Part shown: positions 18,027 to 41,459 of the stretch, one piece after another
Position numbering within the stretch: the first letter of the stretch is position 1
How the letters are laid out: each line of letters opens with the position of its first letter
Source: Gemmatimonadota bacterium
GTDB taxonomy: Bacteria > Gemmatimonadota > Gemmatimonadetes > Gemmatimonadales > GWC2-71-9
NCBI GenBank assembly: GCA_003221035.1
Contig: QHUB01000033.1
Location: 1-46,256 of the forward strand
Direction: 5' to 3'
Length of the DNA stretch: 46,256 bases
Program-made: the position numbers and the translations under genes
Notes under the pieces: model-generated
The model's database searches: none
What the model saw: the letters and a program-made list of their open reading frames with translations, nothing else
What the model was told of the DNA's origin: nothing

Positions 18027-18563
18027 ATGAAGATCTATACAAAAACAGGCGATGCAGGTGAGACCGGGCTCTTCGGCGGTGGTCGCGTGCCCAAGGACGA
18101 CCCGCGCGTGTGCGCATACGGCGACGTGGACGAAACCAACGCGGCGATCGGGTTTGCGGCCTCGCTCGAGCCGGGCAGCTTCGAGTCCGACGCGCTGCAA
18201 GCGATTCAGCGCGACCTCTTCGCCATCGGCGCCGAGCTGGCGACACCGGATCCTTCGAAGCGGCGAGCGGGAGGGGCGCTCGAGCCCGACCGCGTCAGCG
18301 CGCTCGAACAATTGATCGACAAGTATGAGGGCGCGCTTCCGGCCTTGAAGAACTTCATTCTTCCCGCGGGAACGCCCAAGGCCGCAGCCCTCCATTTGGC
18401 GCGCACGACCTGCCGGCGCGCGGAGCGGTCCGTCGTGAGTCTGGCGCGCGACGAACAGATCAATGCCGTCATCATTCATTACTTGAATCGGCTGTCCGAC
18501 CTGTTGTTCATGCTGGCGCGCGGCGTGAACCAACAGGCCGGCGGTCCGGACATCGCGTGGTGA
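18027..18563 (+). CDS. Cob(I)alamin adenosyltransferase, PduO type
   Basis: The 178-residue protein is a PduO/MMAB-type ATP:cob(I)alamin adenosyltransferase, which makes adenosylcobalamin from reduced cobalamin and ATP. The N-terminal signature MKIYTKTGDAGETGLFGGGR is the ATP-binding segment. AYGDVDETNAAIG and the C-terminal helix LNRLSDLLFMLAR are also characteristic. AGAGAGG lies just upstream of ATG 18027. It overlaps aroB by a 4-bp GTGA. No cobalamin riboswitch features were seen in the 96-bp leader, which is instead filled by a palindromic repeat. Confidence 0.92.
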   Translation: MKIYTKTGDAGETGLFGGGRVPKDDPRVCAYGDVDETNAAIGFAASLEPGSFESDALQAIQRDLFAIGAELATPDPSKRRAGGALEPDRVSALEQLIDKYEGALPALKNFILPAGTPKAAALHLARTTCRRAERSVVSLARDEQINAVIIHYLNRLSDLLFMLARGVNQQAGGPDIAW

Positions 18564-19663
18564 CGATCCGTGTCCCGCTCCTCGAGCAGCGGGATGCGTC
18601 ATACGATATCCTGATCGGCGCAGGGCTCATCCGGCAGCTCGACAAGATCCTCCCCGAATACTGTCCCGCCGCCGCCTACGCGGTGATCTCGGACTCGCAC
18701 GTGGGCACGCTGTACGGAGCATCCGTTGCAGAACAGGTGTCTGGTGCCGGGTGTCAGGTTGAGCTCTTCACCTTTCCTGCAGGAGAATGGAATAAGACCC
18801 GCGACACCTGGGCATCGCTTTCCGATCGCATGCTCGCCGCCCATTTCGGCCGCGACTGCGCCGTGATCGCGGTCGGGGGCGGTGTGGTGAACGACGTCGG
18901 CGGGTTCGTGGCGGCGACCTATCTACGCGGCGTGCCGCTCGTGCAGATCCCGACCTCCCTGCTGGCAATGATCGACTCGTCGATCGGCGGGAAAACCGGT
19001 GTCGACGTGCCCGCGGGAAAGAATCTGCTCGGCGCATTCCATCAACCGCGGGTCGTCGTCGCCGATCCGGAGCTGTTGGCCTCGCTCGCGAGTGTGCAGT
19101 TGGCGGCGGGACTCGCCGAAGCGTTGAAGCACGGCGTGATCGCCGACGCGGAATACTTTGCGTTTCTCGAGCGCGAGTACGCCGGGATCTTCGCAAAGCA
19201 CGCACCGGCGCTCGAGCATGTCGTCCGCCGCTCGGTCGAGATCAAAGCGTCGGTCGTCTCTCATGACGAACGCGAAACGGGCAAGCGTGCGATTCTGAAC
19301 TTCGGACACACCGTGGGACACGCCATCGAAGCGACGTCGAAATACGAAGTGTCGCACGGCGAAGCGGTGGCGATCGGAATGGTCTATGAGGCGCGACTCG
19401 CCGAGTCGCTCGGGATCGCGACTGCGGGGACGGCGCAGCGGATCAAATCCGCTCTCGAACGGCTGAACCTGCCGGTCGAACGGCCCGATGCCAGCCAAGT
19501 GGATGCGCTCGTCGCAGCCATGCGCGCCGACAAGAAGGTCCGCGGCGGGGAAATCCGTCTCGCGCTGCCACGCGCGATCGGCAGCGCGCATGGAGACGAT
19601 GCAAACGGGTGGACGGCGGTCGTGCCAGAGGCTGCTATTCGTCAGGTTCTGGTGAACACGTAG
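18560..19663 (+). CDS. aroB: 3-dehydroquinate synthase
   Basis: The 367-residue enzyme catalyses the second step of the shikimate pathway, converting DAHP to 3-dehydroquinate with NAD+ and a divalent metal. Family motifs are clear: GGGVVNDVGGFVAATYLRG (NAD-binding), PTSLLAMIDSSIGGKTGVD (substrate and metal region) and LNFGHTVGHAIE (metal-binding histidines). Start: GTG 18560 gives the usual 4-bp GTGA overlap with the adenosyltransferase gene; GTG 18557 is one codon earlier and equally possible. The gene ends just before a 275-bp AT-rich intergenic region. Confidence 0.95.
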   Translation: MTIRVPLLEQRDASYDILIGAGLIRQLDKILPEYCPAAAYAVISDSHVGTLYGASVAEQVSGAGCQVELFTFPAGEWNKTRDTWASLSDRMLAAHFGRDCAVIAVGGGVVNDVGGFVAATYLRGVPLVQIPTSLLAMIDSSIGGKTGVDVPAGKNLLGAFHQPRVVVADPELLASLASVQLAAGLAEALKHGVIADAEYFAFLEREYAGIFAKHAPALEHVVRRSVEIKASVVSHDERETGKRAILNFGHTVGHAIEATSKYEVSHGEAVAIGMVYEARLAESLGIATAGTAQRIKSALERLNLPVERPDASQVDALVAAMRADKKVRGGEIRLALPRAIGSAHGDDANGWTAVVPEAAIRQVLVNT

Positions 19664-19938
19664 CCCACATTCCTGTCCACGTCTCCACACGCCGAAAGTC
19701 ATCCCTCGGATCGAGTTTGTGGGCAAGCGCTTATACGCTACAAGACCGCTTATCCACAGGTTGTGTGGATAGTGGACAAACGGGGGAATCCCTACAGGTC
19801 CAATAATTTGTGATGTGGAAAACTGCGCTTATTTGCACGTATTGGCAGGAAAACCTATATTGCGGCGTGATTTAGGTCGCCTAAGCGGCGGTCATAAGGC
19901 CTATCCACACACAACTCGCGTTTCAAGGGGAGTCGCTC
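19664..19938. other. 275-bp intergenic region with clustered DnaA-box-like sites
   Basis: This is the longest gene-free stretch in the window. One perfect DnaA box, TTATCCACA, lies at 19750-19758 (+). Single-mismatch boxes lie at 19764-19772 (-, CTATCCACA), 19814-19822 (-, TTTTCCACA) and 19901-19909 (+, CTATCCACA). Two-mismatch sites lie at 19718-19726 (-) and 19771-19779 (-). The first two face each other across 5 bp. Bases 19801-19860 are about 63% A+T (38 of 60 counted), far richer than the surroundings. The mix could be a replication origin or a DnaA-controlled promoter for the sigma-factor gene. No dnaA, dnaN, parA or gidA is present in the window. Confidence 0.55.
19833..19861 (+). promoter_or_regulatory. 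Candidate promoter of the sigma-factor gene
   Basis: TTGCAC (19833-19838) and TATATT (19856-19861, five of six matches to TATAAT) are exactly 17 bp apart, in the AT-rich part of the gap. Transcription would start near 19868, leaving a leader of about 70 bases that contains one DnaA-box-like site (19901-19909). AAGGGGAG at 19925-19932 is a good ribosome binding site for ATG 19939. Confidence 0.5.
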
Positions 19939-20832
19939 ATGGCGAGGTCGAATGCCGGCAAGGCGAAGGCCTTTTTCCGCACCACCCCTTCCGGAGCATT
20001 CGACCAGTACCTGCAAGACATACAAAAACTCCCCCTCATCAAAGATCCCGCTGAAGAACGTCGTCTCGCTCGTCGCGTGCAACGCGGCGATGAAAAAGCT
20101 GCTGAGCGTCTCGTCACCGCCAATCTGCGTTTCGTCATCTCCTACGTAAAAAAATATCAGGGACACGGACTCGATCTCTCCGAGCTCGTCGCCATCGGTA
20201 ATGAAGGATTGCTCAAGGCGGTCAAGAAGTTCGATCCCGACCAGGGCGTCAAATTCATTTCGTACGCGGTGTGGTGGGTGCGGCAGGCGGTGCTGAAGGC
20301 ACTCGCCGAGCAGACGCGCAGCGTCCGCATTCCGTTGAATCAGAACTCGCAGCTGATCCGCATGAGCCGCACCGAGACGTATCTCTCGCAAGAGCTCGGT
20401 CGCGAGCCCACGGACAACGAGATCGCCCGGGCGCTCGAAGACTCGGTCGAGAACGTGCGCATGGCGCGCCGCATGACGGCCGCCGAGCTGTCGCTCGACG
20501 CGCCGGTCGATCGCACCGACAAGGATGCGGCGACACTCGGCGAGCGCTTCGCGGGACAAGAGGGCGGCGAGATCGAAGAGCGCACCGACGGCAAGTTGAT
20601 GCGCGAGTTCATCGACCGGATCTTCCAGAAGTATCTCACGCCGCGCGAGCGCAAGATTCTCTACCTTTATTACGGGCTCGAAGAAGGCAGCGAGGCAATG
20701 ACGCTCGAGAAGATCGGCGCGTTGATGGGCGTGACTCGCGAACGCATCCGGCAGATCAGAGAACGGGCGTTTGAAAAGCTGCGCGAATCTCCGGACGGGA
20801 AAGCGCTGAAAGGGTTCTGGAGAGCCGCCTAA
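19939..20832 (+). CDS. rpoD: RNA polymerase primary-type sigma factor (RpoD/SigA family, short form)
   Basis: The 297-residue sigma-70 protein starts at region 1.2 (SGAFDQYLQDIQKLPLI). It then has region 2 (ANLRFVISYVKKYQGHGLDL-type and FDPDQGVKFISYAVWWVRQAVLKAL, the core- and -10-binding helices), region 3, and region 4 with its helix-turn-helix (EKIGALMGVTRERIRQIRERAFEKLR). Region 1.1 and the non-conserved insert of proteobacterial RpoD are missing. That short form is what Bacteroidota-like and Gemmatimonadota-like primary sigmas show, so it is probably the housekeeping sigma; a group 2 paralogue cannot be excluded. It stands alone, with its own promoter and a terminator-like hairpin downstream. 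Confidence 0.92.
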   Translation: MARSNAGKAKAFFRTTPSGAFDQYLQDIQKLPLIKDPAEERRLARRVQRGDEKAAERLVTANLRFVISYVKKYQGHGLDLSELVAIGNEGLLKAVKKFDPDQGVKFISYAVWWVRQAVLKALAEQTRSVRIPLNQNSQLIRMSRTETYLSQELGREPTDNEIARALEDSVENVRMARRMTAAELSLDAPVDRTDKDAATLGERFAGQEGGEIEERTDGKLMREFIDRIFQKYLTPRERKILYLYYGLEEGSEAMTLEKIGALMGVTRERIRQIRERAFEKLRESPDGKALKGFWRAA

Positions 20833-40178: not shown

Positions 40179-40259
40179 ATTGTGACGTTTAGGGCGGCCC
40201 GGGTTCCGCCACGCCCATCGGCCACATATCATGAAGCCCGACATCTCGCCAAGTCTCCA

Positions 40260-41459
40260 ATGCGCCCTCGCACGCTTGTACTCGCCTGCTTCCTCGGAGC
40301 ATCCGCCTGCGCTGAACCGCTGGTCCCCGAAGTATCCGGCCGGTTCACCGTCCTCGCGGCCGGCGACGATCACACCTGCGCCCTGGTCGAGGACTCCACC
40401 GCCTTCTGTTGGGGGAGTAACAGCAGCCTGAAGCTCGGGAGCGGCGGCACCGAACTCCGCGACTCGCTGCCGCAACTCGTGTCGACCGGCTTTGCGTTCA
40501 CGCAACTCGTTGCCGGCAGGGATCACACCTGCGCTCTGACCGCGCTTGGAACCGCGTACTGCTGGGGTGAGGGAGGGAATGGCCAGCTAGGCAAGGCGGG
40601 GACGTCTAGTGCACCCGAACCAGTCGCGGTCGACGGTGGACGTACATTTCGCGCGATTACGGCGGGCGTCATTCATACCTGCGCGCTGACCGACGCAGGC
40701 GCGGCCTATTGCTGGGGCGACAATAACCTGAAACAAGTGGGCTACGATACCGCTGCAACCACAGTGGGCACGCCAGTGCCCGTTGCCGGCGGGCACACGT
40801 TCAAACTGATCGCCGCCGGCAATTACCACACCTGTGGAATCACATCGACCGATGACGCGTACTGCTGGGGCGCCAACAATTTCGGTATGCTGGGCAGCGG
40901 CGACAGTGTGTACTCCAGCGCGCTTCCGGAGCCGGTCGCCGGCGGTCTGAAATTCAAATCCATCGCCGGTGGCGCGTGGCACACCTGCGCCGTAACGACG
41001 GGCGGCGAGGCCTATTGCTGGGGATCTACCGATTTCGGGCTATTGGGCACCGGGCTTCCAGCGTCCCACAACCAGTTCACGCCCCAACATGTCGCGGGGG
41101 CGGGACATTATCTGTCGGTGAGCCTGGGAGTACGGCACTCCTGCGCGCTCGATGTCGATGGCCGGCTGTCGTGTTGGGGAGCCAACGACGAAAACCAGCT
41201 GGCCGCTGTCAGCCACGATCGGTGCGTGACGCAACCAGGATCGAGCAACTTTGTCCCCTGCGCGTTGCAACCGATCGCCTCGGCGCCGGGCCACTACTTC
41301 CAGGCCTTCATCTCGGGCTCGAACCACGCCTGCGGGCTGAGCTCTAATGCCGCGGCCTACTGCTGGGGCAAGAACGAGCAGGGACAGATCGGCAACGGCT
41401 CTGTCAGTACGAGTATCGCATCGCCGGCGCGTGTGACCGATCCACCTAGATTGCCCTAG
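40260..41459 (+). CDS. RCC1-repeat lipoprotein
   Basis: The 399-residue protein has a lipoprotein signal (MRPRTLVLACFLGASAC, Cys17) and seven RCC1-type repeats forming a predicted beta-propeller. Each has a paired-cysteine core of the form HTCAL...AYCWG (HTCALVEDSTAFCWG, HTCALTALGTAYCWG and so on). The regular Cys pairs suggest one disulfide per blade, fitting an extracytoplasmic location. The function is unknown; RCC1 propellers usually bind proteins. It follows the VWA gene by 81 bp that contain no convincing terminator. Confidence 0.85.
   Translation: MRPRTLVLACFLGASACAEPLVPEVSGRFTVLAAGDDHTCALVEDSTAFCWGSNSSLKLGSGGTELRDSLPQLVSTGFAFTQLVAGRDHTCALTALGTAYCWGEGGNGQLGKAGTSSAPEPVAVDGGRTFRAITAGVIHTCALTDAGAAYCWGDNNLKQVGYDTAATTVGTPVPVAGGHTFKLIAAGNYHTCGITSTDDAYCWGANNFGMLGSGDSVYSSALPEPVAGGLKFKSIAGGAWHTCAVTTGGEAYCWGSTDFGLLGTGLPASHNQFTPQHVAGAGHYLSVSLGVRHSCALDVDGRLSCWGANDENQLAAVSHDRCVTQPGSSNFVPCALQPIASAPGHYFQAFISGSNHACGLSSNAAAYCWGKNEQGQIGNGSVSTSIASPARVTDPPRLP

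Follow-up and report, generated by a model that had tools for sequence, protein, structure and literature searches.

A conserved cluster of DnaA-box-like sites in the control region of a probable alternative sigma gene in Gemmatimonadota

Results

The sigma gene and the gap upstream of it

The stretch of DNA analysed here (46,256 nucleotides; hereafter the window) corresponds to contig C51 in a 3.36-Mb Gemmatimonadota assembly of 113 contigs (G000). An intergenic, putative control region at positions 19664-19938 separates two genes of the plus strand. Upstream lies aroB (18557-19663), which codes for 3-dehydroquinate synthase (TIGR01357, 375 bits; cut-off 305), and downstream a gene of the sigma-70 family (19939-20832), whose 297-amino acid product carries the Pfam domains Sigma70_r1_2, r2, r3 and r4. 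The gap is AT-rich, as the first-pass annotation had stated: its GC content is 51.6%, versus 66.1% for the window, and it overlaps 19636-19910, which has the highest AT content of any 275-bp segment in the window. That it is also the longest gap of the window could not be confirmed, because the interval from 43.9 to 44.55 kb is likewise without an ORF of at least 100 amino acids. Elsewhere in the window, a 425-amino acid ORF consists of RCC1 repeats (40182-41459).

The sigma gene had been described as coding for the primary sigma factor. Three RpoD-type genes, the window's gene among them, were found in the genome. With the RpoD equivalog model the window's gene scored 223 bits, against a cut-off of 572. 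The C38 paralog scored higher, yet it is also below the cut-offs, so that the argument depends on comparing the paralogs with one another. Identity to the RpoD proteins of Hymenobacter and Arenibacter is 58% and 53%, respectively, for the C38 product, and 43% to each for the window's product. The assignment as primary sigma gene was therefore rejected, and the window's gene is probably an alternative (group-2 type) RpoD paralog. No box within one mismatch was found in the sequences retrieved around the other two RpoD-type genes.

A cluster of DnaA-box-like sites and a promoter in the gap

Four 9-mers with at most one mismatch to the DnaA box TTATCCACA lie within 160 bp of the gap (19750-19909), and there are no others in the 46-kb window. 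The perfect box TTATCCACA (19750-19758, plus strand) forms the left half of a dyad, and same-genus relatives have TTTTCCACA or a similar sequence at its position. The right half of the dyad is the one-mismatch 9-mer CTATCCACA (19764-19772, minus strand), which is conserved in relatives. The third, termed box A, is the one-mismatch 9-mer TTTTCCACA (19814-19822, minus strand; TGTGGAWAA on the plus strand). The fourth, again CTATCCACA but on the plus strand (19901-19909), is located downstream of the promoter in the predicted leader and is partly conserved in the genus. Weaker 9-mers with two mismatches are GTCTCCACA (19681-19689, plus strand), of which TCTCCACA is retained in most of the genus; TTGCCCACA (19718-19726, minus strand), for which no conservation was seen in the upstream alignment; and TTGTCCACT (AGTGGACAA on the plus strand; 19771-19779, minus strand), 43 bp upstream of box A. 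A further two-mismatch box was found at 19973, just inside the sigma gene.

To judge the density of sites, the 275-bp gap was shuffled 5000 times with its dinucleotides kept. The shuffled sequences had on average 0.066 boxes and at most 2, compared with the 4 observed. The whole genome (3.36 Mb) contains 141 9-mers within one mismatch, and perfect boxes number 6. The cluster of one perfect and three single-mismatch boxes reported in the first-pass annotation is thus non-random by shuffling.

A sigma-70-type promoter was located exactly as had been described: the -35 hexamer TTGCAC (19833-19838, plus strand), in which TTG is conserved, is followed after a 17-bp spacer by the -10 hexamer TATATT (19856-19861, plus strand), where CCTATATT or CCTATTATG is conserved. 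Box A lies 11 bp before the -35 hexamer, at about -50 from the predicted transcription start, with other boxes farther upstream. It is part of a longer conserved element, TTTGTGATGTGGAAAA (19807-19822), whose spacing to the -35 hexamer is fixed across the window's family. Just upstream of this element is a dyad plus direct repeat, TCCACA-N5-TGTGGATAGTGGA (19753-19776); the boxes form an inverted pair with a 5-bp gap and an overlapping direct pair.

Location of the replication origin

The first-pass annotation had offered two readings of the cluster, one of them a chromosomal origin away from dnaA. The cluster of boxes and the AT-richness of the gap are what such an origin (oriC, or a second origin) would display, and they are its likeness to an oriC with a basal unwinding system, in which DnaA boxes are combined with DnaA-trios (PMC8287927). 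No run of three or more trios was found in the sigma-gene gap, however; the trios lie between dnaA and dnaN. The dnaA gene is on contig C20 and is followed by dnaN. Upstream of dnaA, as read by eye from the sequence, is what we take to be the usual rpmH-rnpA-yidD set. The 243-bp dnaA-dnaN spacer (G000:C20:19147-19389) contains CACATATCCCCGGTGTCTACTACTACTACTAGTATTTCTATATAGA, in which a degenerate box and a short GC-rich segment are joined by a DnaA-trio run and an AT-rich element, the arrangement that PMC8287927 describes for the basal unwinding system. The run, CTACTACTACTACTA, comprises five trios and is adjacent to the AT-rich element. A similar layout precedes dnaN in the genome itself and in 29 relatives, although the trio run is altered in some of them. 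The degenerate state of the spacer boxes in the window's genus is a point in favour of an origin at the gap.

The GC skew was also analysed. Neither the window, where it is small and lacks a clear minimum at the gap, nor the two loci in G002, a genome of the same genus, gave a skew strong enough to use. G031 is a complete chromosome of 4,636,964 bp from the same order and belongs to the family without boxes (f2); its skew, sampled in 20-kb stretches, reveals where the origin lies in the order and bears only indirectly on the window's genome, which is in 113 contigs. The skew of G031 is mostly of positive sign at 0.1-1.7 Mb and of negative sign at 2.0-4.58 Mb. The sign change expected of an origin thus falls near position 1, the location of dnaA. 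The sigma ortholog is at 0.71 Mb, inside one arm, and the sign of the skew does not change there. The skew minimum expected of an origin was thus not borne out at the sigma gene of this relative. The trios in the dnaA-dnaN spacer, their absence from the gap and the skew of G031 led us to reject an origin away from dnaA, which we consider extremely improbable. The true origin of the genome is likely on G000:C20, between dnaA and dnaN, and the comparisons indicate that the gap is not a replication origin but a conserved control region serving a sigma gene of the RpoD family, probably an alternative one. This case shows that a box cluster together with AT-richness is insufficient to call an origin.

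Conservation of the sites in relatives

The relatives retrieved by name belong to Gemmatimonadota, and searches yielded kin from three families, f1 (that of the window), f2 and f3. When the regions upstream of the sigma gene were aligned, the boxes were retained while the surrounding DNA had diverged. The conservation profile was built from rows chosen by the core motif, and the invariance seen in it is partly circular; counts are therefore preferred here. The strict box TTNTCCACA is present upstream of 23 of the 26 f1/f3-type sigma orthologs (0.42 expected), and so the conservation looked for upstream of the sigma gene was found in these two families. It was absent from all nine f2 orthologs (0/9), a family that has the sigma gene without the boxes. 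In a later check set of seven additional f1 orthologs, TTGTGATGT(G/T)GA was found at the promoter in all seven and the strict box in four. The pattern TGTGATGT(G/T)GA / TGTGATGTNGA at a fixed spacing to the TTG of the -35 hexamer matched 62 of 102 family genomes, against 2 matches for the reversed-pattern control; those among the fetched orthologs do lie before the sigma gene, and the match at G070:C4 looks like chance. Both here and in the set of 63 matches considered below, the informative positions are those that the pattern leaves open.

The spacing is conserved too: the start of box A precedes the first T of the -35 hexamer by exactly 19 bp in nearly all aligned orthologs, and AGTGGACAA or a close variant occurs 43 bp upstream of box A, with the same spacing, in most of f1. 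In the ten genomes that have the dyad TCCACA-N5-TGTGGATAGTGGA, which represent three genera, both arms are invariant (10/10) and N5 varies freely; the control gave 0 matches. In the window's genus and the two other genera, the dyad occurs at the sigma promoter alone. Since the arms are invariant around a free centre, we read this as selection on paired half-sites. Distant members of f1 and f3 have one or two boxes each. Taken together, the shuffling and the counts in relatives show that the clustering is genuine and that related bacteria conserve these DnaA-binding-like sites.

Other conserved sequences were noticed upstream of the orthologs. In f3 (L025, L026, L027, L029 and L031) an inverted repeat, ATCG-N8-CGAT, lies upstream of box A and takes the place of the GTGGA boxes of f1. 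A different conserved stretch, resembling TGGCAYGAAAYRTGGCTGTTGAC, covers the -35 in place of DnaA boxes in genomes of f2 and others like them (L034, L035, L039 and L046).

Candidate binding proteins

TTGACTTTTCCACA is present at the promoter of dnaA itself, both in the window's genome and in 17 of 20 relatives, which makes it very likely that TTTTCCACA is the working DnaA box of this clade. Because TTTTCCACA is used at the promoter of dnaA, DnaA appears the likeliest protein to bind the control region, at what we judge to be an even chance. In the 63 matches of the element, the 9-mer positions left open at the sigma gene follow DnaA preferences: A or T occupies box position 3 in 55, and T occupies position 2 in 59 and position 1 in 45. 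The retention of a DnaA box within the element is mixed: 42 of the 63 matches are within one mismatch of TTATCCACA, and 11 have the box broken (see below).

Other features would suit a different DNA-binding regulator, which would read GTGATGTKGA together with the dyad TCCACA-N5-TGTGGA; the resemblance to DnaA boxes would then be largely coincidental, or DnaA would only share the site. The probability of this reading we place somewhat below one half. The conserved element extends beyond the length of a DnaA box. Its GTGA flank, which is not part of a DnaA box and is absent beside the boxes of dnaA promoters, is kept in all but one aligned ortholog, and is as invariant as the box. In 11 of the 63 matches, belonging to some genera, box position 6 is changed (G to T on the plus strand, giving TGTTGA), which breaks the box, and this change is tolerated while the GTGA flank is unchanged. 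Two genomes with TGTTGA at the sigma gene (G024 and G010) nevertheless keep TTTTCCACA in their dnaA promoters. The dyad, with invariant arms and a free 5-bp centre, resembles the operator of a dimeric protein. In cells, the DnaA of E. coli favours boxes arranged in tandem with 2-3 bp between them (PMC11317965), and a double box of that type (same direction, 2-3 bp gap) was sought in the gap and not found. The inverted arrangement with a 5-bp gap, unlike the E. coli tandem boxes, weakens the case for DnaA, as does family f2, in which the sigma gene lacks the boxes.

Several observations speak against a different regulator. Perfect and near-perfect DnaA boxes exceed what another motif would require, and box positions 1-3 match the preferences of DnaA. 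A broad regulon of the extended motif was not seen: GATGTGGAWAA has three copies in the window's genome and few elsewhere, and there is no wider set of sites. One further conserved copy, which does favour such a regulator, was found in the genus: TTTGTGATGTTGATACTCGGAGTG lies upstream of nrdJ, coding for a B12-dependent (class II) ribonucleotide reductase (L237 1501-3012, also L257, L234, L258 and L238; G000:C81:30049-30072). Of nine relatives from the genus, seven have this copy, and altered versions occur in G000 and G004. The copy overlaps the stop codon of the ORF before it, and its conservation may be partly coding.

Other candidates were examined and discarded. By-eye inspection revealed no palindrome around TGTGA matching a CRP, FNR or Rex type site. 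For an RNA element, there was no Rfam match in the window, and for a plasmid-borne copy there was no match.

Discussion

The second reading in the first-pass annotation, a promoter controlled by DnaA, held in part. The boxes are conserved at a fixed spacing to the -35 hexamer, as it would predict, but some features suit another or an additional protein. The sigma-70-type promoter is preceded by box A, contained in TTTGTGATGT(G/T)GAWAA and fixed 19 bp from the -35 hexamer, and by a second GTGGA box 43 bp above box A; in the window's genus and the genera closest to it, an inverted pair of boxes occupies that position. In the likeliest reading, DnaA would occupy box A at an activating position while the boxes upstream help its assembly, and transcription of the sigma gene would follow the amount or the nucleotide state of DnaA. 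We infer DnaA as the putative binder, activation as its putative effect and, possibly, a link to the cell cycle. More broadly, we put forward as tentative and rather doubtful the idea of a clade-specific DnaA activation module (GTGA plus a DnaA box locked to the -35 hexamer, with the dyad upstream), which would link an alternative sigma factor, and in the window's genus perhaps nrdJ as well, to the state of replication.

The datA and DARS loci of E. coli titrate DnaA or change its nucleotide state. If the cluster mainly acted in this manner, its place before the sigma gene would be incidental. Several boxes close together would fit such a role, and sites of this type are found in E. coli intergenic regions (PMC11317965). 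Titration would not, however, need the fixed spacing between box A and the -35 hexamer across the family, and the one or two boxes of distant f1/f3 members fit it poorly. We regard titration as very improbable.

DnaA control of a sigma gene has a precedent in E. coli rpoH, where it was reported as repression (PMC8203912); DnaA binding there was detected by ChIP-seq (PMC11317965). The likeness resides in DnaA boxes before the gene for a sigma-70 family factor. The systems differ in that rpoH is reported to be repressed and codes for the heat-shock sigma, whereas the window's gene codes for an RpoD-type paralog and its boxes are putative DnaA sites. The comparison covers the boxes only, the GTGA element and the dyad being features of the window's promoter. 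At the E. coli nrdAB promoter, DnaA can activate or repress depending on its level and nucleotide (PMC8203912). The boxes are likewise upstream of the promoter, but the gene is another one, and the tandem boxes of nrdA, 3 bp apart (PMC11317965), have no counterpart in the window's gap. A search of the open-licence literature found no description of a DnaA-box sigma promoter in Gemmatimonadota, which is weak evidence of novelty.

If DnaA binds, the window's promoter would be a further case of DnaA acting on a sigma gene, here from an activator-like position, and replication status would have direct control over the amount of a global regulator of transcription in the large and mostly uncultured Gemmatimonadota. 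If DnaA is not the binder, the element would point to another regulator of that sigma factor.

Two further DnaA-related features were observed in the genome. A 650-amino acid ORF with two tandem DnaA-type (Bac_DnaA) ATPase domains was found at L012 8365-10317 (G000:C4), and similar ORFs with a double Bac_DnaA domain are present in G031, G025, G042 and G043. At the start of a pyruvate kinase gene, two DnaA-box-like 9-mers, TTTTCCACA and a perfect TTATCCACA, form an inverted pair (L224 2728-2765; G000:C81:25227-25264).
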